A stretch of 64,000 nt of DNA from Selenomonas ruminantium subsp. lactilytica TAM6421 (GTDB lineage Bacteria > Bacillota > Negativicutes > Selenomonadales > Selenomonadaceae). The notes beneath the pieces are model-generated. The model did not search any database. It was not told the origin of the DNA and worked only from the letters and a program-made list of their open reading frames with translations. The position numbers were made by a program, and so were the translations under genes. Below are positions 9,703-38,153 of this stretch, one piece after another. Location of the stretch: NCBI RefSeq assembly GCF_000284095.1, contig NC_017068.1, forward strand, positions 2,728,001 to 2,792,000, given 5' to 3'. How positions within the stretch are numbered: the stretch's first letter is position 1; every line of letters begins with the position of its first letter.

Positions 9703-12201
9703 TTATCTTTCTGCTCGTCTGCCCAGTTTGCTCTCCAAACGCTGGGCCAGCAGCTGCTGGAATTCTTCTTTGCCCTGCTGGAAGTTGACTTCCACGCAGA
9801 TCACATAGACGGGAACGCTGATACCGGCATGGATGACCTCCATGGGAATCTTCACCGCATCCTTTTCCGTGATGACGATGGCCTCGGCCCCCATGCGCTG
9901 TGCCTGATGGAGGATGTCTGCCATCTCCTGCATGCTGTAGTCGTGATGGTCCGGATAGCGCAGGCTTTCCAGGATCACCACGCCCAGATCCGACAAGGTC
10001 TGTTCAAAGGAAGCAGGGTTGCCGATGGCCGATACAGCCATGATCTTTTTGCCCCGCATCTGATTGACATCAATGCCGTCACCGGCAATATCCACATACC
10101 AGTCCGCCAGCGGGATAAAGCGGCGAGGAGCATGGATGCTTTCCACGATCTGGGCCGACTCGTTGTAGCGGTGTACCGTATCCCGGATATATTCCCGGGA
10201 ACCATCCGCCGCCTGATCCACCTTGGTCATCAGACACACATCAGCCCGGCTGATATGGGAGATGGGCTCGCGCAGGGTGCCTCTTGGCAGCATATAGCCA
10301 TTGCCAAAGACATTGACTGCATCCACCAGCAGGATATCCATATCGCGCTCCAGCTGCCAATGCTGGAAACCATCGTCCAGAATGGCCACTTCCGCCCCGA
10401 AATTCTCGATGGCATACTGCCCCGTAACAGAACGGTCCGCGCCGATCAGCACCGGCACTTCCGGCAGATGCTTGGCCAGCATGAAGGCCTCGTCGCCGGC
10501 ATCCGCCGCTGTCATATGCAAGCGCTCACCGTCGGATACGATGCCCACATTGCCATGCCATTTGGCCCGATAACCGCGGTTCAGGATCACAACCTTATAG
10601 CCCATATCCCGGATATCGCTGGCCAGCCTTTGAGCGGTAGGCGTCTTGCCCGTGCCGCCCACGGTGACATTGCCCAGACTGATGACAAAGCAGCCCAGCT
10701 GCTTGCGGCTGAAGACGCCATGGCGGTAGCCCCAGAGCTTGATATCCACGAGACAGGCATAGATCTTGGAGAACACATAGAGGATGGCGGTCAGGATATG
10801 CATCCCGAAGCCTTCCACTTCCTTTTGATGAACCAGATCGATAAAATAGGTCTGGAAATTGTCGATTTTTTGGGTAGAACGAGCCCGCTGCCGGTTTTCT
10901 GGCTTGCTTTCATAGTTTTCCAAGGTTTCCCGGAGAATCAGCGCGGACTTGCGGGAGGCCCCCTTGTTTTCTCCTACAATAGCCAGGGTTTCCCGCTCCA
11001 GCCGGTGACGGTGGTCGGCATCGTCAAAGAGCTTCACCGTTTCCTGAGCCAGCTCCTGCTCATTATTCACGGTGATGCAGGCATCCCGTTTCTTGAACAG
11101 AGCGTGGGTGTCCTTGAAGTTGAACATGTAATGCCCCACAATGATGGCCTTGCCATGGGCGGCAGGCTCCAGGATGTTGTGCCCGCCATGGGGAATCAGG
11201 CTGCCGCCTACATAGACCACATCGCCCACGCTGTAGACCTTGCCCAGCTCGCCAATGGTATCGAGAATCACAATATCCGCATCCTGGGGGCCATGCTCCT
11301 GCTGCTTCGTGCGGGTGGTCACCGTAAAGCCCGCCCGCTTGCAGAGATGAATGACCTCCTGTGTACGCAGCAGCTCACGGGGAGCGATGACCAACTTGGC
11401 CTTGGCGTGGTTTTCACGCACGGCCTTGAAGGCCTTGAGCACGAAATCCTCTTCCCCACGATGGGTAGAACCGGCCAGCAATATCCCTTCAGCCTTTTCC
11501 AAGCCCATCTCCCGCATGATAGCGGCCTTTTCCTCCAGACTTACATCAGTGTAGGTCTGGTCAAATTTCGTATTGCCCGTAACTGTTACCAGTTCCGGTG
11601 GCGCTCCCAATCGCTTGATATAGTCTGCGTCGATATCCGACTGCATGGCGAACTTAGTCACCGTGCCGATCATATCCGTCAGCAGACTGTTGAGATACTT
11701 GTACTGCTTGACGCTGCGATCGCTGATACGGCCATTGACCATCATGACGGGAATATGAAGCTGCCGGGCCGTCTTCAAGAAGTTCGGCCAAAGTTCCGTT
11801 TCCACGGGCAGGAATACCCGGGGATGGATTCGGCGCAACACCCGCCCGGAAAGGATGGGCAGGTCCAGCGGGAAGTAAATGATGGCATCAGCATCCTTGA
11901 TGATGCGGTTGGCCATCTCATAGCCGCTGGTGGTCACCACCGACACGAGAATCGGCGTCTGAGGGAACTCCCGATGGAATTCCTTGATCAATGGACTGGT
12001 AGCCACGATCTCACCCACCGAGGCCGCATGCACCCAGATGCAATGTTTCTTGGCCACCTTGTCCAGTGTATGCTCGGGGAAAATCCCCAGGCTCTGACGG
12101 ATGCGTTCCACAAAGCCCTTTTCCCGGACCGACCGGATCATGAACACCGGAATGATCAGAATGACGACGAGTATCGCCGCTAAATTGTAGAGGATCTGCA
12201 T
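9703..12201 (-). CDS. WaaA (KDO transferase)-LpxK (lipid A 4'-kinase) fusion
   Basis: 832 residues in one uninterrupted frame. Residues about 1-430 are WaaA/KdtA, the CMP-KDO:lipid A transferase. They comprise an N-terminal membrane anchor (LAAILVVILIIPVFMI), WVHAASVGEIVATSPLI, ETELWPNF and the GT-B C-terminal motif GGSLIPHGGHNILEPAA. After a linker, residues about 466-832 are LpxK, the tetraacyldisaccharide 4'-kinase. These carry their own N-terminal hydrophobic helix (HILTAILYVFSKIYACLV), the P-loop GNVTVGGTGKTP (510-521), NRGYRAKW, DDGFQHWQLERD and VITEKDAVKI. LpxK makes the substrate that WaaA glycosylates, so the fusion joins consecutive steps. The ATG at 12201 has GAAGGGG upstream and lies 4 bp after msbA. 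Confidence 0.94.
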   Translation of the reverse strand: MQILYNLAAILVVILIIPVFMIRSVREKGFVERIRQSLGIFPEHTLDKVAKKHCIWVHAASVGEIVATSPLIKEFHREFPQTPILVSVVTTSGYEMANRIIKDADAIIYFPLDLPILSGRVLRRIHPRVFLPVETELWPNFLKTARQLHIPVMMVNGRISDRSVKQYKYLNSLLTDMIGTVTKFAMQSDIDADYIKRLGAPPELVTVTGNTKFDQTYTDVSLEEKAAIMREMGLEKAEGILLAGSTHRGEEDFVLKAFKAVRENHAKAKLVIAPRELLRTQEVIHLCKRAGFTVTTRTKQQEHGPQDADIVILDTIGELGKVYSVGDVVYVGGSLIPHGGHNILEPAAHGKAIIVGHYMFNFKDTHALFKKRDACITVNNEQELAQETVKLFDDADHRHRLERETLAIVGENKGASRKSALILRETLENYESKPENRQRARSTQKIDNFQTYFIDLVHQKEVEGFGMHILTAILYVFSKIYACLVDIKLWGYRHGVFSRKQLGCFVISLGNVTVGGTGKTPTAQRLASDIRDMGYKVVILNRGYRAKWHGNVGIVSDGERLHMTAADAGDEAFMLAKHLPEVPVLIGADRSVTGQYAIENFGAEVAILDDGFQHWQLERDMDILLVDAVNVFGNGYMLPRGTLREPISHISRADVCLMTKVDQAADGSREYIRDTVHRYNESAQIVESIHAPRRFIPLADWYVDIAGDGIDVNQMRGKKIMAVSAIGNPASFEQTLSDLGVVILESLRYPDHHDYSMQEMADILHQAQRMGAEAIVITEKDAVKIPMEVIHAGISVPVYVICVEVNFQQGKEEFQQLLAQRLESKLGRRAER

Positions 12202-12205
12202 TATC

Positions 12206-13948
12206 TTATGCCCCTTCTGACACTGCACTCTTTTGGAACTGGATATTGTAGAGATAGCTGTAAAGGCCATTCTGCGCCAACAATTCCTCATGGGTGCCGT
12301 GTTCTTTTATCTTGCCGCCATCGATAACATAAATCTGATCGGCGTTGAATATCGTCGAAAGCCGGTGGGCAATCACAAAGGAAGTACGTCCCACCATCAG
12401 GCTGTCCAGAGCGGCCTGGACAATTTTCTCACTCTCCGTGTCCAGCGCTGAGGTCGCCTCATCAAGAATCAAAATTCGGGGATTCTTCAGGATAGCCCGG
12501 GCAATGGACATGCGCTGCCGCTGCCCACCGGACAGGTTCAAGCCTCTTTCCCCGATGGGCGTATCATAGCCCTGGGGCAGTTCCCGGATAAATGTGTCGG
12601 CATTAGCTGCCTTAGCCGCCTCAATAACCTCTTCGTCCGTAGCATCAAGACGCCCGTAACGAATATTTTCCATAACCGTAGTGGAAAACAGCATGGTTTC
12701 CTGGGGCACGATGCCAATCTGTTCACGCAGAGAAGAAACCGTTACATCCCGGATATCCTGACCGTCAATGGAAATGGAACCGCTATTGATTTCATAAAAA
12801 CGCGGAATCAGGTTGGCAATGGTTGACTTACCGGCACCACTGGGCCCCACAAAGGCAATCATCTGGCCTGGCTTGACCTCCAATGACACATCTTCCAGGG
12901 CATTTACGCCTTCTTTATAACCAAACGTGACATTCTTGACTTCCACATGTCCCTGAATTTTCGGCAGGGCCTTAGCCCCGTCCTTATCGGTAATGGTTTC
13001 CGGCATATCGATAACCGCAAATACACGATCTACGGCGGCCATAGCCCGCTGCAGATTGCCATAGACACGGGCCAGTCTTTTTACCGGATTGGCCAAATTC
13101 ACGGCATACGTCAGGAAGGCTACGAGAGCGCCGGCAGTCATATAGCCGTTAACCACTTCATAACCACCAAAACCCACAATGAAGGTCACGGACACCGCCG
13201 CCAAAAATTCTACCGTCGGGGTCAGCAGACTCGTAAGCTGCACATTCTTCATGACCGCTTGGAAGTTCAAGATGTTCTGGTTAATGAACCGCTTGATTTC
13301 ATAATCTTCCCGAACAAAGGATTTGACCACGCGGATGGAGGAAATGCTTTCCTGCAGCAGGGATGTGATGTCGGCAACCCGCTCCTGAATCACCGTGCCG
13401 TTGCGCTTGAGCTTGCGGCCAAAGATCTTCATGGCCTGCCCCACCAGCGGGATGACCACCAAAGTCAACAGAGACAGTTTCCAGTCCAGATAGAGCATCA
13501 TGGCAATGGAACCAATCAGGATGGAGCCTTCCGTGACCATCTCAATGAGCTGGTCAACCAGTGCCGACTGGATAGCCGCCACGTCATTGGTAATATAACT
13601 CATGGTCTCACCCGTCTGATGCTTGTCAAAATAGGCCATGGGCATGCGCTGGAACTTGCGGAACATCACTTCCCGCACATCGATGACCACTTTCTGCCCA
13701 ATATAGGACACCAGATAGGATTGACCGTAATAGAATACGCCACGAATCAGGAAAACGACCACGATGCTGACACAAATGAAATACAGCATCATCATATCTT
13801 TGTCAGCCAGAACCTTATCCACCATATCCTTAATTATCCATGGCAGATACAGATTACAGGCCGCTGCCACCACAATGCAGACAATAGCCAGTACCAGACG
13901 CTTGAGATATGGTCTTATATACTGCAAGAGCCGCTTATAATTCTTCAT
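12206..13948 (-). CDS. msbA: Lipid A flippase MsbA (ABC exporter)
   Basis: 580-residue half-transporter: six N-terminal membrane helices (to about residue 320) and a C-terminal ATPase with Walker A GPSGAGKSTIANLI, signature LSGGQRQRMSIARAI, Walker B ILILDEATSALD and switch His in VIAHRLSTI. Placement between lpxB and waaA-lpxK supports lipid A-core flipping rather than drug export. GAGGG lies just upstream of the ATG. Homodimer expected. Confidence 0.93.
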   Translation of the reverse strand: MKNYKRLLQYIRPYLKRLVLAIVCIVVAAACNLYLPWIIKDMVDKVLADKDMMMLYFICVSIVVVFLIRGVFYYGQSYLVSYIGQKVVIDVREVMFRKFQRMPMAYFDKHQTGETMSYITNDVAAIQSALVDQLIEMVTEGSILIGSIAMMLYLDWKLSLLTLVVIPLVGQAMKIFGRKLKRNGTVIQERVADITSLLQESISSIRVVKSFVREDYEIKRFINQNILNFQAVMKNVQLTSLLTPTVEFLAAVSVTFIVGFGGYEVVNGYMTAGALVAFLTYAVNLANPVKRLARVYGNLQRAMAAVDRVFAVIDMPETITDKDGAKALPKIQGHVEVKNVTFGYKEGVNALEDVSLEVKPGQMIAFVGPSGAGKSTIANLIPRFYEINSGSISIDGQDIRDVTVSSLREQIGIVPQETMLFSTTVMENIRYGRLDATDEEVIEAAKAANADTFIRELPQGYDTPIGERGLNLSGGQRQRMSIARAILKNPRILILDEATSALDTESEKIVQAALDSLMVGRTSFVIAHRLSTIFNADQIYVIDGGKIKEHGTHEELLAQNGLYSYLYNIQFQKSAVSEGA

Positions 13949-20762: not shown

Positions 20763-21869
20763 TTATTCTTTTTGATTACTTTGCAGATCTTTCATTTCCT
20801 GCACGATCTCGTCCGTGACATCCTGTGTCGTAAGACCAATGGCAATGCTGTCCCGAGGAGCAATATCCATAACACCCTCCGTACGGGGCAGGAAGGATTG
20901 GATACTTTGGGGATGATGCACCAGGATCAAGGTGAAATGATGCAGAATGGCCACCTTGGCCGCCTTGCCCGCCACATCATTGAGGATATGAGCTTCCAAG
21001 GCGGAAAGTTCGCTTTTTTTCTCCGCCAGTTGCTGACGTTTTTGCAGCCGCTGCTGCACCTTCAGGGCCATTTCCTGCTGCTTCTGCAGTGCTTCAGCAT
21101 TGCGGGCCTCAGCCTCACTTTTTGTCTTCAAGGCCTCAGACATTTGCTGCTCTTTCAGCTGAGGCAGGCTCTGCTGCCATTTGGCCAGTTCCGGTCCCAG
21201 TTCCTTCTGCACATAAGCCTCAATCTCGGCCTTATAGGACTGCCAGAGCTCATACTGACGGCGTCCCCGCTCAGCCTGCAGGCGGCTGCGCTGTTGCAGC
21301 CAGTCCTCACGTTCGGCAGCGATGCTGTCCTTGGAATCCAGCGGATTGTGCATGGAAGCCTGATTGTCCAGCTTAATGTTGAGATTCAGGATGGCATTGA
21401 GATATTCCTCATCGATAGCCTGCCGCCGGGCATTGAATTCCGCCTCAGTCTTTTTCTTATAGGCCTCCCGCAGGCGCTGGGCCTTGCGTTCCAGTTCCGC
21501 CCGGCCGCCTATGACATCGGCCGCATTCTTCTGCCAGACGGACTCCTTGAAGGTTTCCGCCAGCAGCTCCGGCTTCTGTATGGACAGCAGGTCCCCCACA
21601 TCATTTGTCTCCAGGGACAGCAGCTCACATTCAGCCTGCAGGGCCTTGTACTTTTCGTAATCCGGATGCGCCGCCAGCACCTGCTGCCAATCGATAAGGC
21701 CTGTATCTGCTGCTGCAGCCGCCGGCGGCGGTGCTTCCCGGGGAATAATGAATTCTCGGGCCAGCCAGGCACCTAACAAGACAAAAGCGAGAGCCACCAC
21801 TGCTCCCACAAAGATATGGCGGCCCCGCTGCCTCTGCTCTTTTTCTTCATCCTTGCCGGATTCTGCCAT
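20763..21869 (-). CDS. Membrane-anchored long coiled-coil, Skp-related protein
   Basis: 368 residues: a charged cytoplasmic tail, one membrane segment (HIFVGAVVALAFVLLGAWLA, about 18-37) and a periplasmic domain. The N-terminal motif LIDWQQVLAAHPDYEKYKAL resembles the VDYSQIMSQHPKVQDA start of the soluble Skp-like protein. The C-terminal end IGLTTQDVTDEIVQEM matches the other two paralogues. Between them lies a long coiled coil (about 100-290). I read it as an anchored Skp/OmpH relative with an enlarged helical arm; function otherwise unknown. Confidence 0.65.
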   Translation of the reverse strand: MAESGKDEEKEQRQRGRHIFVGAVVALAFVLLGAWLAREFIIPREAPPPAAAAADTGLIDWQQVLAAHPDYEKYKALQAECELLSLETNDVGDLLSIQKPELLAETFKESVWQKNAADVIGGRAELERKAQRLREAYKKKTEAEFNARRQAIDEEYLNAILNLNIKLDNQASMHNPLDSKDSIAAEREDWLQQRSRLQAERGRRQYELWQSYKAEIEAYVQKELGPELAKWQQSLPQLKEQQMSEALKTKSEAEARNAEALQKQQEMALKVQQRLQKRQQLAEKKSELSALEAHILNDVAGKAAKVAILHHFTLILVHHPQSIQSFLPRTEGVMDIAPRDSIAIGLTTQDVTDEIVQEMKDLQSNQKE

Positions 21870-21968: not shown

Positions 21969-22433
21969 TTATTTGCTGACCTGCTTCAGGACATCCTGGG
22001 TGATGTCCACGCCACCGTAAACCACAGCGCCCTTGTCCAGCACTACGGACAAGCCCTTCTGCTCAGCAACCTTCTTCACAGATTCTTCCACGCTCTTGGT
22101 GATGGGTTCCATGAGCTCCTGGTTCTTCTGCTGCAGACGCTGCTGGGTCTGGGTATAATAATCACGCTTTTCATTATCATTCATGTTAGCGGATTTAGTC
22201 TCAAATTCCTTCTGGGCAGCCGTAACAGCTTCCTGCATTTCCTTGGAAGCGTCCTGCACCTTCGGATGCTGGCTCATGATCTGGCTGTAATCCACCACGC
22301 CCACATTGGAGCTGGCAGCGCTGGCCATGTTCGGACCAAACTGCGTCAGAGCCATAGCCACGACGGAACCTACAAAAGCCAGGGCAATGAGAATGCTAAC
22401 AATCTTAACCTGTTTTTTCTGCAATTTAACCAT
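21969..22433 (-). CDS. Skp/OmpH-like periplasmic chaperone
   Basis: 154 residues. N-terminal membrane/signal segment (VKIVSILIALAFVGSVVAMAL), VGVVDYSQIMSQHPKVQDA, a helical hairpin (about 55-115) and a C-terminal strand ending GGVDITQDVLKQVSK. It matches the Skp/OmpH family, which holds unfolded outer-membrane proteins in the periplasm for BamA. AAGGAG precedes the ATG, and it has its own strong promoter at 22500-22528, so it can be expressed independently of bamA. Confidence 0.85.
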   Translation of the reverse strand: MVKLQKKQVKIVSILIALAFVGSVVAMALTQFGPNMASAASSNVGVVDYSQIMSQHPKVQDASKEMQEAVTAAQKEFETKSANMNDNEKRDYYTQTQQRLQQKNQELMEPITKSVEESVKKVAEQKGLSVVLDKGAVVYGGVDITQDVLKQVSK

Positions 22434-22552: not shown

Positions 22553-23842
22553 CTAAAAGTTGCCGATAAGCCGCAGCCAGTTCTGCTCATTATCCACCAC
22601 ATACTCCAGTCCCATGAAATCATGGAGCTGATAGCGCAGTGCCGCTTCCCCGATGCTTTCCGCCCCGCGATATTCATAGCGCAGCAACCAGCGGGGCCCC
22701 AGTTTCTGGGCTGCGTCGTAGATAAAGCCGTGGTTGTGCATATCATAGCGCAGTCCCAGCCTCCGGCCGCCAGGCAGATCATGGCGCCAGCCCAGCTGCC
22801 AGCCCCAGCGCACTTCCTCAGGCCGGAAATCCGTCTGGGCAAAGAGCTCATCCCGCCGCCCCAGCATCTGTCCGCCATGGAGGCGGAACAGCAGGTTTTT
22901 GTCGGAATCATGGCCGCCCTTTGACCTGCGGCCTGCATCCAGCCAGCCGGTGATCCGCAGGCGGTAACGGCTGCTGTCCGAACGGCTCATGACGTGGCTG
23001 CGCTCTGCCGGCTCGATATCCACCCGGGTGTGCATCTTCAGCAACCGGAAATCATGGCTGTTATCCAAAGTACGGGCAAACTGTGCTGCCAGTTCTTGCT
23101 GATGGCGCTGCACGAACCCCACCGGTACCCCCACGATATCATTGACCTGATCCTGCATCAGTTCTCGGTGTGTCAACAGGGATACACTTGGAATCGTCTG
23201 GGAACGCATGGACAGGTCCACCGTCCGCACCACCGGCAGCCGCGGATAAACCGTCAATCGGATTTTGGCATGCGGTTCCGGTGTAAGCTCGAAATCCCCT
23301 CGGAATTCCGGCAGATGTTCCTGCAGATAAGCATTTAGGTGCTGTTTCATAATGCCATTGGTCCAATCCGCAGCGGCGGTGGGCAGCCCCGTCAGGGCAT
23401 CCTGAAAGACCTGCTCCACACCGGTAAGGTCTGCCCGCACCAGCTTTTCAATCCGTAGCGGCATCCCCTCCACGGTGGTTTCTACCTCCACCTTCTGGAT
23501 GGTTTCCGACCAGGGCAGGAGCTCTACCTGCACCGCCGTCTGCGCTCCCGGCGTAAGCTGTACGCGGCTGACCGTGTAGCCCACCAGCACCTTGTCAAAG
23601 ACCTCATGAATCAGGCTTTCATAAGTCACCTGCTGGCTGCGGACGGCCGCGATATCCTTGCCTTCCAGCAGCTGGCCTGCAATGGCCGCTACACTGCGGT
23701 TCATGCGCTCTGCCACCAAGGGGGGCAGATTGCTGCGGGCGCAGGTAACAGCTGTCACCTGTTCCACCCGTGCTGCGGCCTGCCCGCTTCCGCAGTCGAT
23801 GATCAGCAAAGCAACCAGCAAGGCCACAAAGAGGCGCTTCAT
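22553..23842 (-). CDS. Uncharacterised predicted outer-membrane beta-barrel protein
   Basis: 429 residues, not recognised. It has a Sec signal peptide (MKRLFVALLVALLIIDCGSG, cut near QAAA). A first half of alternating helix/strand (about 30-260) has a loose POTRA-like or BON-like rhythm. From about 285 there are amphipathic strands rich in Arg/Tyr/Trp (RYRLRITGWLDAG, NLLFRLHGGQML, WGWQLGWRHDL, RRLGLRYDMHNHGF, RWLLRYEYRG), and it ends in LIGNF with the terminal Phe favoured by BamA substrates. Its stop is one base from the bamA-gene start region downstream boundary at 23843, and it lies between bamA and skp on the same strand. I infer an outer-membrane protein with a periplasmic domain, possibly in assembly or lipid transport. 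Confidence 0.6.
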   Translation of the reverse strand: MKRLFVALLVALLIIDCGSGQAAARVEQVTAVTCARSNLPPLVAERMNRSVAAIAGQLLEGKDIAAVRSQQVTYESLIHEVFDKVLVGYTVSRVQLTPGAQTAVQVELLPWSETIQKVEVETTVEGMPLRIEKLVRADLTGVEQVFQDALTGLPTAAADWTNGIMKQHLNAYLQEHLPEFRGDFELTPEPHAKIRLTVYPRLPVVRTVDLSMRSQTIPSVSLLTHRELMQDQVNDIVGVPVGFVQRHQQELAAQFARTLDNSHDFRLLKMHTRVDIEPAERSHVMSRSDSSRYRLRITGWLDAGRRSKGGHDSDKNLLFRLHGGQMLGRRDELFAQTDFRPEEVRWGWQLGWRHDLPGGRRLGLRYDMHNHGFIYDAAQKLGPRWLLRYEYRGAESIGEAALRYQLHDFMGLEYVVDNEQNWLRLIGNF

Positions 23843-25879
23843 TTAGAACGTGCCGCCCACGGAGAAGTGGACGCGGCCGCCTTTGTCGCCCCGGCCGTAA
23901 TCAAGACGCAGCGGCCCGATTGGGGTATTGAGGGACAAGCCTACACCAATACTGCCATGAATGTCGTCGCTCTTCGGCATGAAATCCTTGCTCCAGGCTG
24001 CGCCCCAGTCCGTGAAGATGGCCCCCTGTACCTTGGTGACAATGGGGAAACGGTATTCCAACGTTGCCAGCCCCATGCGGGTGCCGCGGTACTGATCCTC
24101 TCGATAACCACGCAAGCTGTTCTGACCGCCCACCTTGTACTGGTTGAATTCGGAGATATGACCGCGCCCCAGACCGTACTGACCACGCAGGGCAATGACC
24201 TGAGCATGACCTACCTTGAAATAGCGCTGGTCTTCAATGGTAGCCTTCTGGAAGTCAAAGTCCCCACCTAAACCGGCTACCTCGGCGGACAGGCTTACCT
24301 TGCCACCTTCCGTCGGATTATAGATATTATCCCGATTATCCGTAACATGTTCCAACGTCACACTTCGGGTGGTGCCAAAATTGTATTTACGCCAGGCAGC
24401 GCCAGCTGCACCACTGCGGTCACCTGCATTACCATTCTCCGTATGACGCTTATAGCTGTCCTTTCGGTTCTTCAGCGTGATATAGTTGGTGGAATACTCG
24501 CTGACCGGACGTCCCAAAGTGATCTCGCCGCCAGCATACTTGCGCATATAGCTTTCCTTTAGCTTGCCATTGGTATCATAATCATCATATTCATAAGTGC
24601 GGTTGTAAACACGCAGAGTACCCACCGTTTCTTTTTTATCGATATAAGGATGGCGCCAGGAGAAGGAATAGCCCTGGGCATCGGTCTCGTCACCGCTCTT
24701 TTCATAGGTGATGCTGACCGCATCGCCCGTGCCGCGGAAGTTAGTATCGCCGATGCTGACCATTCCCAGCACGCCGTCGGCCGTGCTGTAACCGGCACCG
24801 ATACCGAAGGAACCCGTACGCTTTTCCTTCACATCCAGTTCCATGACCACCGCATTGGGTTCCACACCGGGATTCATCTTGATGTTGACATCTTCAAAGA
24901 AGCCCAGGTTGTAGACACGCTGCATGGAGCGACGGGCCTGCTTGGAGTTGAAGGGTTCGCCCGGCTTCTGACGCATCTCACGCAAAATGACATAATCCTT
25001 GGTCTTTTTATTGCCCTTGACCTTGAAGCCTTCCAGCTTGCCTTCGTTGATCTTCAGCGTCAGATTGCCTTCCTTATCGATATTCATATCCGTAACCTTG
25101 GCCAGGATGTAGCCGTCCTTACGGTACATTTCCTTGATGGCCTGGATATTCTGCTGCAGATTGCGGCTGTTCAGGATCTCACCGGGCTTCACCGTAACGC
25201 AGGAAGCCAGAAGTTCCGTCTTGATGACCGTATTGCCCGTGATGTTCACGCTCTTGAGCACGGGGTTTTCCAGCACGTGATAGGTGACGACCACGCCCTC
25301 CGGCACCTTCTGGAAGGTGGGGAACAGGTCGTAGAAATAACCCGTATTATAGATGGCCTCCCGGTCCGTATTCAAGCCCTTCACCGTGAACATATCGCCG
25401 GTCTTCATGGCGATAGCGGCCTTGGCGGTGTTCTCCGTCAGCGGCGTCGTGCCTTCAAAGACGGTATCCACGATGGTCTGACCTTCGTACTCCTTGCTGT
25501 ATTTCTCGATGACATCTTCCTGGGGACGATTCTTGGCCCATTCGCTGGTCCGGGGATCCACATTGGCATCCTCCGCTTTTTTGTCTGCGTCTGCTGCCTG
25601 AGCCTCCTTATCTGCCGCTGCTGCAGGCTGGGTGCCTACCGCCTCGCTGGCCACGCTGCTTTCAGCAGCCTTCGTCTCCGCCGGCTTATCCGCAGCCGCA
25701 GCAGCCGTATCTGCCTGGGGAGCTGCCACAGCATCAGCCTGGGCCGTTGCTGCCGGTGCAGCCGCTGCCACTTCCTCAGCCGGTGCTGCCTGTGCCATCC
25801 CCGGCACCACCGCAAAGCTGGTGGCCATGGCCACAGCATAGGCTAAAAATCGTCTGTTCTTCTGTTTGGAATCGTACAA
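23843..25879 (-). CDS. bamA: Outer-membrane protein assembly factor BamA
   Basis: 678 residues. Signal peptide (about 1-31, ending GMAQAAP), then a low-complexity Ala/Asp/Glu/Lys stretch (about 32-112) before the folded part. POTRA domains occupy about 130-350 (IVDTVFEGTTPLTENTAKAA, LKSVNITGNTVIKTELLAS, LEGFKVKGNKKTKDYVILRE). A C-terminal 16-strand-type barrel contains the LRGYRED motif (VRGF/Y of BamA) and ends FSVGGTF. It has fewer POTRAs than the five of E. coli. Translation starts at a TTG (25879) with GGGAGG eight bases upstream. Confidence 0.95.
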   Translation of the reverse strand: MYDSKQKNRRFLAYAVAMATSFAVVPGMAQAAPAEEVAAAAPAATAQADAVAAPQADTAAAAADKPAETKAAESSVASEAVGTQPAAAADKEAQAADADKKAEDANVDPRTSEWAKNRPQEDVIEKYSKEYEGQTIVDTVFEGTTPLTENTAKAAIAMKTGDMFTVKGLNTDREAIYNTGYFYDLFPTFQKVPEGVVVTYHVLENPVLKSVNITGNTVIKTELLASCVTVKPGEILNSRNLQQNIQAIKEMYRKDGYILAKVTDMNIDKEGNLTLKINEGKLEGFKVKGNKKTKDYVILREMRQKPGEPFNSKQARRSMQRVYNLGFFEDVNIKMNPGVEPNAVVMELDVKEKRTGSFGIGAGYSTADGVLGMVSIGDTNFRGTGDAVSITYEKSGDETDAQGYSFSWRHPYIDKKETVGTLRVYNRTYEYDDYDTNGKLKESYMRKYAGGEITLGRPVSEYSTNYITLKNRKDSYKRHTENGNAGDRSGAAGAAWRKYNFGTTRSVTLEHVTDNRDNIYNPTEGGKVSLSAEVAGLGGDFDFQKATIEDQRYFKVGHAQVIALRGQYGLGRGHISEFNQYKVGGQNSLRGYREDQYRGTRMGLATLEYRFPIVTKVQGAIFTDWGAAWSKDFMPKSDDIHGSIGVGLSLNTPIGPLRLDYGRGDKGGRVHFSVGGTF

Positions 25880-25907: not shown

Positions 25908-26453
25908 TCATTGACGCAGGATCTTGCCTGCAGATTGCATGAGTTGTTGTTTTTCCATATCCGGCGGCTGGGGTGCAGTCTTCGGTACAGGCAGGCTCTC
26001 GGTATCTGCCACTGCCCGCCTGGGGGACTCGGACACCGCCGGCTTTTCTGCCTGCTTTTCCGGCTCCGTCCTGACAGAGGGCGGTTCCGGGGCAGCGGGC
26101 TGAGCCGGTGGCTCTGCCGCTGCCGGTACATCTTCTGCCGGCGGTGCGGGACTTACAGATGCCCCCGTCTGGTTCAGGACCTGCCTGTTTTCTTCCACCG
26201 GCATGAAGGGGGGGACGCCTTTCCACAAAACGCCCCCTGCCAGGGCTAAAGCCAGCAATAAAGCCGCGCCCCGTCTTCCCCACAAGAACAAGGTACGGCT
26301 GCGTGGGCTTTGCCCCACATGGGCCAACTCCGCCCTGGCCAGCATCAGCTTCAGATCTCCCTGCACATCATTTTCCTGTGCCAGGGAATCTTCCGCCCTG
26401 CCCAGCCAGTCTCGGGCTGCCCGAATATGATTCTGCTGTGAACGCCTGTCCAT
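25908..26453 (-). CDS. Uncharacterised single-pass protein with Pro/Ala/Glu-rich periplasmic tail
   Basis: 181 residues, family not recognised. A cytoplasmic helical N-terminus (IRAARDWLGRAEDSLAQEND, Arg-rich after it) precedes one membrane segment (RRGAALLLALALAGGVLW, about 59-76), then a disordered tail dominated by Pro, Ala and Glu. The overall shape recalls TonB-like or TPR-less envelope linkers, but no TonB motif is visible. GGAGG precedes the ATG. It lies 28 bp upstream of bamA, so it is probably translated from the same mRNA. A competing frame (25843-26283) lacks a plausible start and is rejected. Confidence 0.65.
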   Translation of the reverse strand: MDRRSQQNHIRAARDWLGRAEDSLAQENDVQGDLKLMLARAELAHVGQSPRSRTLFLWGRRGAALLLALALAGGVLWKGVPPFMPVEENRQVLNQTGASVSPAPPAEDVPAAAEPPAQPAAPEPPSVRTEPEKQAEKPAVSESPRRAVADTESLPVPKTAPQPPDMEKQQLMQSAGKILRQ

Positions 26454-27295: not shown

Positions 27296-30200
27296 TCAGA
27301 ACGTCACCCGGGCTTCCACGCCAAAGATATACTTGTTGGACTCCCGCTCGACGGTCACGCCCCAACGGTCATTGATGTCATATTGGACACCATAGCGGTT
27401 GATATTATCCCCGCCAAAGCCATGGGTGTATCTGAGCATGACCTTGTCTGTTATATATTTTCCCATAGAAACATTAAAATCATATTTGTTTTCGCGATTT
27501 TCTTTTTCTGCCGCATGATTGTCAAAAGCCGAACCACTGCCCCGGGAGATGGAGAATTTATCCAGATAGAGATACTGGCGCATGATACCCTCCACTTCCG
27601 ACAGGAAACTCATCTGCAGCCCTACTGCCAACAAATCTCCCATATCCATGGTACTCTGGCCATTTTTATAGGCATCACGCAAGGTCAACAGCTGTATGAT
27701 CTGCGTCTGACTCATCTCAGGATTAGAGGTGAGCTTCATTTCCGCCGCCCCCAATGGCCCCTTCACTGACAGAAAGACCTTAGCCTGACTGAGTTTCGTA
27801 TCGGCAAAGAAGTAGATGCTGGGCATGAAGGATGCCACCTGATTGAAAGTCGCCTTGCCTTCCCGGATCTTAAACTCGGTCTTCAGATAGTTGATAGTCC
27901 CGCCTCGCTTCACCTGCAGACTGCCACTCATCTTGGGATGGCTCATGATGCCCCCCACATGGAAACCACCGGTAAGATAGAGGTCGTAGAGATAGGGACT
28001 GTAGAAATGCACCTTATCCCCCGCATTGACCTGCACATCAAAGACCATCTCCGGCATGGTACCGTCACTATCCGGAATCGTAGGCACGGAAACCTTGCAT
28101 TTATTGAAATCAATCTGACCAGAAAGTTTCGGCAGATGCTGCCCATAAAACTCCGTATCGGCCAGATGCAGCTCACCATTCAAGGGGCCTTCAAAAAACT
28201 TGCTCTTAAGCCCCAGATTGACCACATACAAGGAAAAATCATAATGCTCCGGTTCCAATCCATTCAGCGTCAGCTTACCATTGGCATTATAGTAACCACC
28301 GCCCATTTTACCAGAAAATTCCTCGACTGTCACTTGATTGCCATTGAATTTCAGCCGGGCAGTCATATCGGTAACTGGATCCTTCAATTCCTTGATTTTC
28401 ACTGCGCCATCAGGAATAACCACCGTACCATCCAGGAAAGGATGCGCCAATGTCCCATGGATCTTCAGCTCGCCTTCCGTGGCCCCCAGCGCCCAATCGA
28501 TTTCCTTGGAAACGGTGGGCAGCAGGGATAAATCCGCATCCTGCAGTCCAATGGTCAGCTGGATCTGCTCATAATCATCCAGCCATTCATCCTTGCCTGC
28601 TGTCAGCGCCCTGAGGGGCACAATGCCCTTGGCCGTGGCGGCACAGGTCTTCGTTCCCACGGCTTTTTCCACCCGCAATTCCGTCAGGTCCACCAGACCG
28701 TTCTTCAGATGGGCTTCACCGGTCAGGGTATCAAAACCAGCCCCCTGGATACCTCCGTCGACTGCCTTGACCTTGACGTCGGCAGCCGGATTATAGGTAT
28801 AGCCTCCCAGCACGGCCTCAATATCCGCCGTCCCGGTCACGCCCCGGGCCTTGATCCCGGCCAGACCGGTAAACATGCCAAAGTCCAGCTGGCTGGCATT
28901 AAACTTGACATTGATGGGCCCGCCGATTTCTACGGAACCATTGGCGGCAAAGGTGCCGGCCGTTCCCTGGCTCCCCTGCAGCTTGTTGATATAAACCACA
29001 TGGTTCAGCATATTAAGATCCAGTTCTACGCCATGCACATCATAGCCACCGGCCTGACCGCTGGCAATCATGCCATTGACCTTAGCGCTGGGATTTTTAA
29101 GCGTGCCCCCCAGGCTGGCAGTGAGATCCGCCTTCCCGCTTATAAGCTCCGTCTTCTGATTCAGCAAAGCTGCCACAGCGGCAATATCCGCATTCTGCAT
29201 CACCACAGCCCCACGGATTGCATTCGTTTCCGTGTCATAGGACAGTTCCATATCATAAGTACCGCCATTCTGCTCAAAGCCAAAATGATCGATATCAAAG
29301 CTATGCCCCCGGAACTTAACCATACCTCGCAGATTATTTATGGTCTGGCCGTTCATGACGATTTCCGGCGCATCGAGAACACCATGGAAGACCGGCGCAT
29401 TGATAGTGCCGTCAATCTTGCCCTTGAAGGTGCCATGGCCGCTGACCTCATAGGGCAGTTTGTGTTCCACCCGCTTGAGGTTGATATCCTTGGCCACCAC
29501 TTCCATATCCAAATCCTGGTTGTCCGTGGTGATTGTACCATTGAGCACCATGTCGATCATCGGAGAATACGCATGGAAATCCTGCAGGCGCAGCTTGCCA
29601 TTCTCGAGGAAATAGTCACCATCCATACCGGACAGCAAAACCCCATGGTAACTGCCACGATAGAAATGGATATACCCCGTTGCCTGAGGATTATCCAGCG
29701 TACCTGTTACCTTGATGATATTGTCCACATTACCGGTCAATGGCTGATCCGGTGCAATGAGCGCCACGATATCTTCCATGCGGGCCCCCATGGTATCCAG
29801 CTGCAGATTGACCTTCTTCTCGCCGGTGAAACCCACCGAGCCGGCCGCCCGCCAGACCTCCTTGCCATCCTTTTCCATCAGGAAATCATCGATGCCGATG
29901 CCGTCCAGACTGCCGCTGGCGGCAAATTTCAGGCTGTCAAAGGGCTGCTTGAAGATCTTGCCCTTGAGGCCGGAGAATTTGATTTCCACCTGGGGATTGG
30001 ATTTGTCGCCATGAATCGTGCCCTTGAAATCCGACAGGCCCGACATGTCGATGCGGCTGTCCAGAGCCTGCAACAGGGACAGGTCAAAATGGCCACCATA
30101 ATAGGCCAGATCCAGCTGGGCTGCGCCCCGCATATCCCGGATGGAACCCTCCAATCCCAGGCTGCTGTGATTGGGCATCTTGACGCTCAGATAATCGATG

Positions 30201-31639
30201 ATAAGATCATCGTCAGCCAGATAGAAGGAAGTGCTGACCTTGTCGGCTTTGATGCCATGATAAGCGGCATTGACCACCTTGGCACTGCCATAAAGCTGCA
30301 GGGTGCTGACATCCGTCCCCACACCATTGCCGCCCAGATCCGCAAACACCGCACCGGTAAGGCCGTCAAGCTGTGGCAGGAAGGAACTGCCCTGGGCTGC
30401 ATCGATATTTTCCAGCTTCATATGAGCCGTATAGCCCAAATTTTCCGTGGACAGTACCGCTTCGCCGCTGACCTTGCCGCCAAAGACATTGGCTGAAAAG
30501 CCCCGCACAAAGAGGTTCTTGTCCTGATAGCGCACATCGGCCTGAGCTCCCGTAAAGGGAATATCCATGGCCTGTCCGGCTGCCACCTGCACCCTGCCAT
30601 CCACGCTGGGATTGCTGATGGCCCCGGTCACCTTGACATCGAAACTTGCGGCTCCCTGATAGGGAATATTGGTAAGAATTTTAGACGGATCAAAGGAATC
30701 CGAGCTGGCTTCCAGTTCCAGATACGGCGTGGTATTCAGATTCCGGATCCTGCCGTGGGCACGGACCTTCTGGGCCGCCGCCTCCGCATTGACATCCAGC
30801 AGCACCTCCGCATTGGTGAAGGAAGCGTGGCCGGCGATATTTTCGATCTCCGTGCCTTCCACCTGCACCCTGCCATCCTTGAGGTCGGCTTCACCGCTGA
30901 AGGACAGGTCCCCGTCCCGGCGATAGGCATGGAGGTCTGCCGACTCGATCCGGCCCCCTTCAACCTTTACATTGTCCGGGATAAGGCCTGCCGGCACAAA
31001 GGCCAGGTATTTTTCCACATCCAGCCCCTGCACCCGGGCATTGACGATCTGCCGCATATCGGAAAGCGTCGCCGTGCCCGTCACAGCCGTGCCCTGATTC
31101 TGCGCCGCAAACTCAGCCTTGTATACCGGGTAGTCCGCAAAATCCACACTGCCATGCACATCATCCAACGATAATTCCTGTCCCTGCCGGCGCACCTGCA
31201 CATGGGCATCGGTGACGCTGACCTTGCCATGGAATTCCTGGGAAGTCTTTTCCTTGCTCAGCAGATCCTCCACGTTCCAGCTGCCATCTGCCCGCTCAGC
31301 AAGGACTGCCTCCACGCCGCTGACCTGCACTTCCCCTACGGCATTGGCCGGATCCGAAAACGCCGCAAGCAGGCGGCAGCTAACCCGGGCCGTATCGGCA
31401 CGGGCAATCAGCTCCGCCTGCTTGTCATAGACAGCTACGTTATGCAGTTCCAGATCGCGCAGGGATCTTACCTGGATCTCCCCGATTTCCACCTCTGTCC
31501 CCAGGGCCTGGGTGGCCAGAGAAGAGACTTCTTCCCCGGCCCTTTCCATGAAGTTATGCGTTTGTACATAGTACCAGAGACTGGTGATGGCGATCAGCGC
31601 CATCACCACCCCCCCGATTATCCATGTTTTCCCCTTCAT
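27296..31639 (-). CDS. tamB: TamB-like inter-membrane lipid transport protein
   Basis: 1447 residues: an N-terminal membrane anchor (TWIIGGVVMALIAITSLWYY), then AsmA-like sequence and a very long series of beta strands (repeated patterns such as GNVDNIIKVTGTLDNPQATG and IHGTLAHPFLDGTVVIPDG). The C-terminal DUF490/TamB domain includes GPLGAAEMKLTSNPEMSQTQ and ends FGVEARVTF. The family forms a beta-taco groove spanning the periplasm and moves phospholipids to the outer membrane. No TamA is seen nearby; BamA downstream may be its partner, as proposed in bacteria lacking TamA. The gene is the largest in the window. Confidence 0.92.
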   Translation of the reverse strand: MKGKTWIIGGVVMALIAITSLWYYVQTHNFMERAGEEVSSLATQALGTEVEIGEIQVRSLRDLELHNVAVYDKQAELIARADTARVSCRLLAAFSDPANAVGEVQVSGVEAVLAERADGSWNVEDLLSKEKTSQEFHGKVSVTDAHVQVRRQGQELSLDDVHGSVDFADYPVYKAEFAAQNQGTAVTGTATLSDMRQIVNARVQGLDVEKYLAFVPAGLIPDNVKVEGGRIESADLHAYRRDGDLSFSGEADLKDGRVQVEGTEIENIAGHASFTNAEVLLDVNAEAAAQKVRAHGRIRNLNTTPYLELEASSDSFDPSKILTNIPYQGAASFDVKVTGAISNPSVDGRVQVAAGQAMDIPFTGAQADVRYQDKNLFVRGFSANVFGGKVSGEAVLSTENLGYTAHMKLENIDAAQGSSFLPQLDGLTGAVFADLGGNGVGTDVSTLQLYGSAKVVNAAYHGIKADKVSTSFYLADDDLIIDYLSVKMPNHSSLGLEGSIRDMRGAAQLDLAYYGGHFDLSLLQALDSRIDMSGLSDFKGTIHGDKSNPQVEIKFSGLKGKIFKQPFDSLKFAASGSLDGIGIDDFLMEKDGKEVWRAAGSVGFTGEKKVNLQLDTMGARMEDIVALIAPDQPLTGNVDNIIKVTGTLDNPQATGYIHFYRGSYHGVLLSGMDGDYFLENGKLRLQDFHAYSPMIDMVLNGTITTDNQDLDMEVVAKDINLKRVEHKLPYEVSGHGTFKGKIDGTINAPVFHGVLDAPEIVMNGQTINNLRGMVKFRGHSFDIDHFGFEQNGGTYDMELSYDTETNAIRGAVVMQNADIAAVAALLNQKTELISGKADLTASLGGTLKNPSAKVNGMIASGQAGGYDVHGVELDLNMLNHVVYINKLQGSQGTAGTFAANGSVEIGGPINVKFNASQLDFGMFTGLAGIKARGVTGTADIEAVLGGYTYNPAADVKVKAVDGGIQGAGFDTLTGEAHLKNGLVDLTELRVEKAVGTKTCAATAKGIVPLRALTAGKDEWLDDYEQIQLTIGLQDADLSLLPTVSKEIDWALGATEGELKIHGTLAHPFLDGTVVIPDGAVKIKELKDPVTDMTARLKFNGNQVTVEEFSGKMGGGYYNANGKLTLNGLEPEHYDFSLYVVNLGLKSKFFEGPLNGELHLADTEFYGQHLPKLSGQIDFNKCKVSVPTIPDSDGTMPEMVFDVQVNAGDKVHFYSPYLYDLYLTGGFHVGGIMSHPKMSGSLQVKRGGTINYLKTEFKIREGKATFNQVASFMPSIYFFADTKLSQAKVFLSVKGPLGAAEMKLTSNPEMSQTQIIQLLTLRDAYKNGQSTMDMGDLLAVGLQMSFLSEVEGIMRQYLYLDKFSISRGSGSAFDNHAAEKENRENKYDFNVSMGKYITDKVMLRYTHGFGGDNINRYGVQYDINDRWGVTVERESNKYIFGVEARVTF

Positions 31640-33354: not shown

Positions 33355-34638
33355 TCAAAAGGCCTGTTTCAGCCCCACATAGGCAGCCCGGCGGTCCTTG
33401 TCGTTGACATTCTGCCACTGCCCCATCAGCCAGGTATTGTCCTTCAGACGCAGCTGGGCGCCAAGGCGCACCGCCGTATCATCGAAGTCATAAGCCTCTG
33501 CCGAGAATTTGAAATTCTTGCCTGCATAGGCATCAAGCCCCACGCCGGCATCGCCATGGATGGCCCCCACTCGGGCAGCCAGATTGCCCTTGCGCTTGCC
33601 CACCTGGAAGTTCACGCGATTGGCTTCCCCCATATCCTCCAGTCCAAAGGTCAGGAAGGGGCCTTTATCCAGCGCCGCCGTAAAATTCCAGTTGGTATCC
33701 CAGTCATGGGCACTGCCGCTGTACAGAGTGGACAGCTCGCCGGAGGTCTTGATGGCTTCCAGCTTCTCCTTGCCCCGTTTGGCCTTTTCCGTCAGTTCCC
33801 GGGCATTATGGATTGTCTTTTTCACATCCTCCACGGTCTTTTCGTCGCCGGCCACCTTGGCCAGGCCCTCGGACACAACACGTATCTTCTCGCTGGTCTG
33901 GGCGATATTATCCAGGGTAAGGCGCAGGTTCTCCGCCGTCTGGGGATCAGCTCCCACCGTGGCCAGATTGGCCATCATGGCCTCCACATTGTTCATGGTG
34001 CGGTTGAGACTGCCGGTTATCATATTCATATTGGTGAGGATCTGATTAATATTGCCCTGATTGGCATTGATGGTGGCTTCCAAAGCCGCCATCATGCCGT
34101 TAATATGGGCCGTCGTATCCCGCATATTCACCACCATCTGCACGATGGAAGTCTGGAACGCCTCATTACCCACGATGTTGTTCATGCTGGACAGCAGCTC
34201 CTGGGCCTCAGTGATGACCTTGCTGGCGGTCTGCAGCATCTCATCCATGCTGGCCTCATCCTGTCCAGTAAGATAATCACCATCGCTGAGATAGCCCGCA
34301 GAACTTTCACCTGGAGTGATATTGATAAACTTATCACTCATAATGCCCGACGAACCGATGGACACCTGAGAGCCCTTGGGAATCTGCACCCCGTCATTAA
34401 TCTGCAGGGTGACGGTGACGCCCCGGCCATCATTGGCCACGGATTTCACCTTACCCACCGGCACGCCGGACAGGCGCACTGCCGACTGGGGTTCCACCCC
34501 CACCACCTGCTTGAAGCCGGCATACAGGGTATAGCCCTTGTCGCCGCCCAACCGGAAACCGCTCAGCATGATGACCACGCCGGCTAACAGTGCCAATCCC
34601 GCCAGGGTAAAGGCTCCTACCTTTGCTTCTACACTCAT
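33355..34638 (-). CDS. mlaD: MlaD-like MCE protein with C-terminal outer-membrane barrel
   Basis: 427 residues. N-terminal membrane helix (AFTLAGLALLAGVVIMLSGF), a single MCE domain (YTLYAGFKQVVGVEPQSAVR, GVPVGKVKSV, to about 115), then a long helical region (about 130-300, with many Met/Asn heptads). A C-terminal beta-rich part (RVNFQVGKRKGNLAARVGA, KFSAEAYDFDD, AAYVGLKQAF) ends in Phe. This matches the transenvelope MlaD bridge reported for Veillonella parvula, where helices span the periplasm and a barrel sits in the outer membrane. Overlaps mlaF by 4 bp. Confidence 0.9.
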   Translation of the reverse strand: MSVEAKVGAFTLAGLALLAGVVIMLSGFRLGGDKGYTLYAGFKQVVGVEPQSAVRLSGVPVGKVKSVANDGRGVTVTLQINDGVQIPKGSQVSIGSSGIMSDKFINITPGESSAGYLSDGDYLTGQDEASMDEMLQTASKVITEAQELLSSMNNIVGNEAFQTSIVQMVVNMRDTTAHINGMMAALEATINANQGNINQILTNMNMITGSLNRTMNNVEAMMANLATVGADPQTAENLRLTLDNIAQTSEKIRVVSEGLAKVAGDEKTVEDVKKTIHNARELTEKAKRGKEKLEAIKTSGELSTLYSGSAHDWDTNWNFTAALDKGPFLTFGLEDMGEANRVNFQVGKRKGNLAARVGAIHGDAGVGLDAYAGKNFKFSAEAYDFDDTAVRLGAQLRLKDNTWLMGQWQNVNDKDRRAAYVGLKQAF

Positions 34639-36677: not shown

Positions 36678-38153
36678 TTATTTCTCCATCATTTTCACAA
36701 TTCGTTTCATATTTGTTACAAAAAGCGTTAGGGCTCCTTGTAATTCCATACCAATCAGGCCTGCGGATGACGCTATGTCATACCCATGCCTGTGTTTAAT
36801 CTCACTATTTTTAGCTTCTATCATATAACGCTTTCTAGCCTGTTCCTTAAAATATTCTGTTTCCTGAAACTCCTGTTGTTTCTTGTGTAAATCGCATTTT
36901 ATCGTAACGGAATAAATCTTGCTTTTGGCACCTTCTTTATAACAGGTTCCACAATGTGGGCATTGCTTACATTTCTCAATGTCAAAATAATAGCTCATTC
37001 TTTGATTTGTTCTATTGTTTTTGCGTCCAGTTCTTGCTTTGCGGATGGCCATATGCCCTTCAGGGCATACGAACATTCCCGCATCCTTGTTGAAAGAAAA
37101 ACCATTGCTGCCTTCAACACGGGAGCCGTTGGATATAACAGGATTCAATTTGGCAATCAGTTCAAAGGATTTTTCTGGCGCATCTTTCGATTCAGCAAAT
37201 TTAAGATTTTCTTTGCCGGAGTATGCGGTATCACCGATGACACTCTGCACTTCCAGTCCGGCTGCTCTGGTTTTTTCAACTAATGTTCTTAATTGTTCCC
37301 CGTCACTGCGCTCGCCACTGGTTACTACTGCAGCTGTAATCAGCCGTTCATCGGTCATGGCAATATGTGTCTTATAGCCAAAGAAGGATGTATCTGCTGT
37401 TTTATGCCCGATTCGGGCGTCCTCATCTTTGGAAGTGGCCAAATGTTCTGCATGGTCTTCGACCGTTTCTTTGAGCAAGTTCAGCCTCTCCTGTATGGCA
37501 GGCATTTCTGCCATCTGGCTGTCATTTTCTATTGTATTGATTAACTGTCGGCAATATTCCAGCGCATCCACCAGTGAGCCATTTTCTACTTTCTTGGGAA
37601 ACCTTTCTTTCTTTTGGGGAGAATCTGTCTGGTAAACCGTCTTGCGCAATAGCTTGGCTTGTTCCAACAACCGCTCATAGGCAGATTTCTGGTTATAGCG
37701 AGCCTTAGTATGCGTAGCATCTACAATAATTCGTTTGCTCTTGATTACTTTGTTCTCCAAAGCAATTTGGATACTTTTCTTGAGTAACAAATCCAGAATA
37801 TTCTCATCTTGTAAGCGGAGTTTACGAAATTTGGTTAAGGTAGAAGGGTGGATTACTTCATCTTCAGGGCGGAGTCCCAGAAAATATTTAAATGACATAT
37901 CATATCGGCTACGTTCAACTAAATCGGAATCCGACATATTGTAGATAACCTTTAACAGCAGATATTTGAACAGCATTATGGGAGAAAGAGCATTACGGCC
38001 ATTATCCAGGCAATATTTATGCTCCAGTTCATCTTGAATGAAAGAAAAATCTACAAGCGTATTAAATTTTCGCAGAAAATGATTTTTGGGAATGAGACGA
38101 TCATAGATGGCTGTAAATTCACTAAGCTTGAGTTGCTGGCTATTCCGTAACAT
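36678..38153 (-). CDS. IS1182-family DDE transposase
   Basis: 491 residues, full length and without frameshift. N-terminal DUF772-type domain (LDNGRNALSPIMLFKYLLLK, MSFKYFLGLRPEDEVIHPST), then the DDE domain: RIIVDATHT (first Asp), SVIGDTAYSG (second Asp) and RYMIEAKNSEIKHRHGY (Glu). A Cys cluster CKQCPHCGTCYK lies in the family's zinc-ribbon-like insertion. GGAGG is six bases before the ATG. It drives transposition of the surrounding element. Confidence 0.95.
   Translation of the reverse strand: MLRNSQQLKLSEFTAIYDRLIPKNHFLRKFNTLVDFSFIQDELEHKYCLDNGRNALSPIMLFKYLLLKVIYNMSDSDLVERSRYDMSFKYFLGLRPEDEVIHPSTLTKFRKLRLQDENILDLLLKKSIQIALENKVIKSKRIIVDATHTKARYNQKSAYERLLEQAKLLRKTVYQTDSPQKKERFPKKVENGSLVDALEYCRQLINTIENDSQMAEMPAIQERLNLLKETVEDHAEHLATSKDEDARIGHKTADTSFFGYKTHIAMTDERLITAAVVTSGERSDGEQLRTLVEKTRAAGLEVQSVIGDTAYSGKENLKFAESKDAPEKSFELIAKLNPVISNGSRVEGSNGFSFNKDAGMFVCPEGHMAIRKARTGRKNNRTNQRMSYYFDIEKCKQCPHCGTCYKEGAKSKIYSVTIKCDLHKKQQEFQETEYFKEQARKRYMIEAKNSEIKHRHGYDIASSAGLIGMELQGALTLFVTNMKRIVKMMEK

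Follow-up and report, generated by a model that had tools for sequence, protein, structure and literature searches.

Gene order and features of the locus

We analysed a 64,000-nucleotide stretch of the genome of Selenomonas ruminantium subsp. lactilytica TAM6421 (the window), which carries a cluster of outer-membrane genes. Between bamA and skp, exactly where the earlier note had called it, lies an open reading frame for a protein of 429 amino acids (Table 1). In the window sequence the ATG of this gene comes straight after the bamA stop codon TAA, with zero bases between them, a spacing that suggests translational coupling. Downstream are skp-type genes and lpxD (the latter identified by reading), while tamB lies upstream and mlaD further up. 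The gene has a single match in its own genome (3.63 Mb; the window lies in contig C1).

Table 1. The gene between bamA and skp, the parts of its product and neighbouring genes, in window positions
Feature	Positions	Strand	Basis
Gene for three predicted POTRA-fold domains and a predicted 10-stranded barrel, 429 aa	22553..23842	-	ORF call, conserved family, model
Signal peptide, residues 1-24, cleavage near AAA/RV by eye	23771..23842	-	Sequence and model helix 2-15
Predicted POTRA-fold domain 1, residues 28-110	23513..23761	-	Beta-alpha-alpha-beta-beta in models; related to domain 2 by hhalign
Predicted POTRA-fold domain 2, residues 117-200	23243..23494	-	As for domain 1; slightly the most conserved of the domains
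Predicted POTRA-fold domain 3, residues 207-290, adjoining the membrane	22973..23224	-	Models; match to H. influenzae BamA POTRA4
Predicted 10-stranded outer-membrane barrel, residues 293-429	22556..22966	-	Model; OpcA and TMB10_163 matches
bamA, directly upstream	23843..25879	-	PF01103, PF07244 (three POTRA stretches), TIGR03303
skp (OmpH family), downstream neighbour	21969..22433	-	PF03938, E 8.8e-21
tamB	27296..31639	-	PF04357
mlaD	33355..34638	-	PF02470

The cluster has several other features. Between two skp genes the window encodes a 368-aa protein (20763-21869, minus strand) that has, by reading, an N-terminal membrane anchor and the look of a coiled coil; it matches no Pfam family above the cut-off and its position is kept in many relatives. 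Upstream of bamA is a 181-aa ORF (25908-26453, minus strand), by reading membrane-anchored and proline-rich, with no Pfam match. An IS1182-family transposase (36678-38153, minus strand) is found within the outer-membrane gene cluster, and a waaA-lpxK fusion is encoded as one 862-aa ORF (9703-12291, minus strand) that combines the Kdo-transferase N-terminal domain PF04413 with LpxK PF02606.

Sequence family

The protein has no match in Pfam or NCBIfam at E values up to 1, and a PHROGs search returned nothing. The profile of its family gave one irrelevant match among PDB sequences (E 0.5). When 32 and 37 family members were scanned, the matches were weak and scattered (best E 0.0091 in Pfam and 0.01 in NCBIfam); among the 32, DUF760 was hit by four members (best E 0.0091) and TamB by two (best E 0.069), and the Pfam POTRA domain was absent from the 32 or 37 members scanned. 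With respect to Pfam, NCBIfam and PDB sequences, the gene is thus as unrecognised as it had first appeared.

The 92 distinct family members are 407-445 aa long (median 431). A terminal Phe, pointed out earlier in the window protein, is the rule across the family (74 of 92), with Leu in 16 members and Ile in two. The window protein lacks a lipobox, of which a loose pattern occurs in three of the 92 members, and we therefore rule out that it is a lipoprotein.

Predicted structure

The full-length AlphaFold2 model (pLDDT 87.9, pTM 0.71), built from 32 relatives of one family with a method that may favour closed barrels, consists of an N-terminal helix, three units of the order strand-helix-(short helix)-helix-strand-strand (bounds in Table 1) and ten strands between residues 293 and 428. 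POTRA domains have this same beta-alpha-alpha-beta-beta order. The signal peptide, the periplasmic alpha/beta half and the barrel half described in the earlier note are all borne out by this model, the signal peptide also by reading.

Folded alone, the periplasmic part reaches a pLDDT of 90.9. Its three units are repeats of one another by hhalign (second to first, E 8e-8; second to third, 5e-7; first to third, 1.3e-4 one way and 0.011 the other). Foldseek searches with the full-length model returned only TamA, BAM/Omp85 or TOC chains among the best 50 of 938 matches, with TamA first (E 5.7e-12). The same three groups account for all of the best 50 of 366 matches of the periplasmic part, where TamA was found at E 1.5e-7 and POTRA1-3 of Anabaena Omp85 at E 4.9e-7 among the matches listed. 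The superpositions are loose, the best rows having a TM score of 0.23 and an rmsd of 21.6 Å for the full length and 0.30 and 12.6 Å for the periplasmic part, perhaps owing to bending of POTRA arrays. Comparison of the whole array with VIA gave a best Z of 7.2 at 18.2 Å, below the tool's caution line of 8. The cleanest single-domain match, again with VIA, was to POTRA4 of H. influenzae BamA (Z 6.0, 3.5 Å over 77 residues). We detected no sequence similarity to the POTRA domains of the BamA encoded next to it, for which hhalign gave at best E 0.012 across 17 columns; the POTRA label is therefore a statement about fold. In sum, structure prediction and fold search, the checks proposed for this gene, predict three tandem POTRA-fold domains in the periplasmic half and a barrel behind them.

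The C-terminal part is predicted to form a closed barrel of 10 transmembrane strands. It aligns with OpcA (Z 13.3, 2.7 Å, 129 residues) and with the designed barrel TMB10_163 (Z 13.3, 2.8 Å, 130 residues) in VIA, a match of shape that implies no kinship. VIA rows obtained with the full model cover mainly this barrel, and the absence of POTRA chains among them is uninformative. Against the barrel profile of the neighbouring BamA, hhalign found nothing (E 0.06). The barrel does resemble part of the C-terminal barrel of MlaD over 58 columns (E 4.7e-5, probability 68%) and, over 51 columns, the C-terminal strands of TamB (E 8.5e-5, probability 60%), which in turn resemble each other (2.4e-5); reversed-profile controls gave 0.027 or worse. 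This likeness suggests that three proteins of the cluster may share one type of outer-membrane hairpin. The alternation of hydrophobic residues noted earlier in the barrel strands is significant, being reached by 5 of 5000 shuffles of the window protein and by 0 of 5000 for the family mean. It is not specific to the barrel, because the POTRA strands show it too (matched by 0 of 5000 shuffles).

We also looked for the two outcomes named beforehand as counter-evidence, a confident prediction with no barrel and strong homology to a known family with another function, and neither occurred.

Distribution and linkage to bamA

Within the family Selenomonadaceae we identified a match in 102 of 121 genomes, and within the class Negativicutes in 164 of 200 genomes (73 of 81 genera); these samples overlap and include a few partial or doubled matches. 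Conservation across the Negativicutes, a further check proposed at the outset, is thus far from chance. The closest relatives among named loci are from Selenomonas ruminantium strains (best locus 83% identity); proteins from beyond the family are about 25-37% identical in the rows listed and keep a length near 430 aa. In a sample of the phylum the gene occurs in 17 of 299 genomes, nine of which are outside the class and belong to six families. An Omp85 domain is found in 76 of the 299 genomes, and all 17 carriers are among these 76 (hypergeometric 1.8e-11, a statistic that ignores relatedness).

Linkage was counted over 105 distinct loci, which are a non-random sample. Of the 102 that include sequence upstream of the gene, 100 have bamA no more than 300 bases away on that side. 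In 84 of 100 loci the next gene recognised is skp, the other 16 having none recognised that close. In some Selenomonadaceae (L052, L059) the gene and skp are about 1.7-2.2 kb apart, with other DNA between them.

No match was found in 36 of the 200 class genomes. In 13 of 18 such genomes inspected, bamA is followed directly by skp, and one of the 13 belongs to the window's own genus (G043, L124); in the remaining five, from two genera, neither skp nor the gene was recognised behind bamA. Two of the 30 best Omp85 loci in the phylum sample belong to carriers, and in the other 28 skp comes after bamA (in L191 about 530 bases later). skp genes are likewise reported immediately downstream of bamA in V. 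parvula (PMC5491611). A search of 23 no-match genomes for a hidden divergent copy (profile A2) returned two short stretches at E 0.05; both are inside reading frames of 673 and 1455 aa, and we rejected them. In G018 and G012, bamA is followed by ORFs of the same size that by reading look unrelated. The fixed position claimed by the earlier note therefore holds where the gene is present, and some lineages, one of them within Selenomonas, do without the gene.

Trees of the protein and of BamA over 38 loci agree in outline by eye, though not in every branch, and rows from outside the class are set apart in both (support 100/100 and 100/99). We conclude that the gene is old, has been inherited together with bamA and is dispensable in some lineages; loss would be a more parsimonious account than several gains at a single site. 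Over 49 loci, the distances of the protein correlate with those of BamA (r 0.846; partial r 0.475) and of LpxD (r 0.867; partial r 0.521), and do not single out BamA over LpxD as a partner.

This lack of a coevolution signal specific to BamA, together with the several lineages that lack the gene and leave bamA and skp in place, would suit a stand-alone outer-membrane protein that uses its POTRA-fold domains otherwise (for secretion of one client, envelope bracing or sensing) and has its place in the operon for co-expression only. We consider this unlikely, since adjacency to bamA is kept across the class and outside it, the phylum sample has the gene only in Omp85-bearing genomes, and no client gene is evident by reading beside it in the window.

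Relationship to Omp85 proteins and TamA

The Omp85 superfamily is defined by at least one POTRA domain (PMC11116518), which this protein has by fold and not by sequence. Its barrel has 10 strands in the model rather than the 16 of Omp85 proteins, and it has no Pfam match, PF01103 included, at E up to 1. A VRGF/Y-type motif in loop 6 is a further mark of Omp85 proteins (PMC12611786); the pattern [VIL]RG[FYW] occurs in none of 92 family members (last 145 residues) and in 87 of 90 BamA sequences (last 320 residues). Barrel and motif both rule out membership of Omp85. The genome itself contains three more ORFs with an Omp85 domain (560-591 aa, G000:C9 and C10; partial, weaker matches, E 1.5e-12 to 3e-11), which means that it has other Omp85-domain proteins than BamA.

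The protein shares tandem POTRA fold with BamA, cyanobacterial Omp85 and Toc75 but differs from them in barrel and sequence, and no profile similarity was detected to the BamA encoded beside it. It comes closest to TamA, the best Foldseek match among the matches listed, in combining three POTRA-fold domains with an outer-membrane barrel at the C terminus. It is TamA's plan without two defining Omp85 features, as the barrel is one of 10 strands, not 16, and both the Omp85 domain and the VRGF-type motif are missing. Its gene also sits behind bamA, unlike tamA of E. coli, which is in one operon with tamB (PMC11014939). MlaD is encoded in the same cluster, has a 10-stranded C-terminal barrel in V. 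parvula (PMC10665443) and shows the weak profile similarity described above, but it carries an MCE domain and an inner-membrane anchor where this protein has POTRA domains.

The open-licence literature searched yielded no description of the family or of POTRA domains on a small barrel. A 2016 study singled out three cluster genes of unclear function as present in all Negativicutes (PMC5007114), and the COG descriptions given there do not fit this protein. What is new here is a predicted POTRA-fold arm on an outer-membrane barrel of a type for which that literature offered no precedent.

The main rival to the role proposed below is that the protein is an analogue of TamA, with POTRA-fold domains that dock TamB instead of BamA and a small barrel at which a TamB bridge, carrying phospholipids or proteins that are hard to fold, would end in the outer membrane. 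Several observations favour it: TamA is the best structural match among the matches listed, tamB is in the same cluster, and the barrel resembles the C-terminal strands of TamB and the barrel of MlaD. In addition, POTRA1 of TamA binds TamB (PMC11014939), and a published account of the Negativicutes describes one BamA with TamB and no TamA (PMC5007114). However, the tight linkage is to bamA, from which tamB is separated by a sigma-factor-like ORF (by reading) and further DNA in the window as in most long loci. TamB-like ORFs, identified by reading, also persist upstream of bamA in genomes that lack the gene (L128, L130-L132). Moreover, pairing of BamA with TamB in the absence of TamA has been proposed in Borrelia (PMC13382580), and the further Omp85-domain ORFs may mean that a true TamA is encoded elsewhere in the genome. 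Overall, we hold this reading to be rather improbable, yet somewhat better placed than a stand-alone protein.

LptD and lipopolysaccharide delivery

The earlier note had also considered delivery of LPS or lipid, observing that the cluster has no LptD. This is true of the window, and a search of the whole genome gave no match to the LptD domain PF04453, a search that among 14 controls finds LptD in E. coli and Caulobacter only. About 21 kb beyond the end of the window, however, we identified an LptD-like candidate (L119:5065-6594) of 509 aa with a signal peptide, located by reading beside heptose-type genes and having a sub-threshold match to LptD_N (E 0.28, and 0.54 in another search). lptD is reported to lie outside the cluster and to be conserved among Negativicutes (PMC5491611). 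Given this candidate and the reported gene elsewhere, the lack of an LptD in the window does not argue for an LPS role. A small LptA/LptC-like (OstA) protein of 178 aa is also encoded outside the cluster (L118:6351-6887, minus strand).

The protein itself has no match to PF04453 or OstA (PF03968). The lack of PF04453 in the genome is what would speak for a substitute for LptD/LptE, but the model contains no OstA/jelly-roll half and its barrel has 10 strands. LptD is present in V. parvula, where skp comes right after bamA, apparently without this gene, and a complete Lpt system is nonetheless reported (PMC5491611). We therefore abandon LPS delivery, which we regard as highly improbable, and find no support for lipid delivery as drawn from the missing LptD.

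Proposed role in outer-membrane assembly

Given its predicted POTRA fold and barrel and its linkage to bamA, our best guess is that the protein has a dedicated role in outer-membrane assembly, as the earlier note had proposed from position. The product of bamA is its likely functional partner on the basis of gene linkage. More specifically, we suggest that it is a BamA-bound accessory outer-membrane protein standing in for the missing BamB-E lipoproteins, a reading to which we give an even chance. We favour an accessory BAM subunit on several grounds: the gene is linked to bamA; BAM and TAM use their POTRA arms for docking and for handling substrate (PMC11014939); a search of diderm Firmicutes is reported to have found no BamB-E (PMC5007114); and BamG of Flavobacterium is a precedent for an integral-barrel BAM subunit (PMC12611786).

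The protein would probably be made in step with BamA, secreted, and inserted by BamA itself, and would most likely be an accessory subunit at BamA's side in the outer membrane. Its POTRA arm, aligned with that of BamA, could take substrate strands borne by Skp or guided by TamB through beta-augmentation, and the small barrel would serve as an anchor only. In this way an integral barrel protein may cover part of the job done by BamB-E in Proteobacteria.

The comparison with known accessories is one of function. BamG works in a similar way, as an integral barrel protein of a BAM complex, but it has a FadL-type 14-stranded barrel, and the accessible text of that report makes no mention of a POTRA array (PMC12611786). 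With the BamB-E lipoproteins the protein would share a role as BamA accessory in the periplasm, and it differs from them in having no lipobox. The folds of BamB-E are unrelated to its own.

Several points weigh against an accessory subunit. The structural superpositions are loose, sequence likeness to the POTRA domains of the neighbouring BamA was looked for and not detected, and the distance correlations favour BamA no more than LpxD. Barrel-anchored BAM accessories have been considered awkward, as they need BamA for their own folding (review PMC11784454), and the protein is dispensable in evolution, as seen in the class genomes that have no match (36/200).

Implications

How BamA functions in bacteria without BamB-E lipoproteins is a stated open question (PMC11784454). 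The family described here is a concrete candidate for an answer, with a testable partner, and the argument made in the same review against barrel-anchored accessories makes its case sharper. Lineages that have bamA and skp but lack the gene offer natural controls. As a tentative proposal, which we rate somewhat below the accessory role itself, diderm Bacillota may possess a BAM subunit of their own, a second POTRA-bearing outer-membrane protein that is not an Omp85 protein and is translationally coupled to BamA, forming a double POTRA array. Such a subunit would be a non-lipoprotein answer to a BamA without BamB-E that predates the divergence of the Negativicutes and was lost several times. 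If POTRA folds do occur on a barrel other than the 16-stranded one of Omp85, the POTRA domain would be a module that can be recombined, which bears on the evolution of both BAM and TAM.
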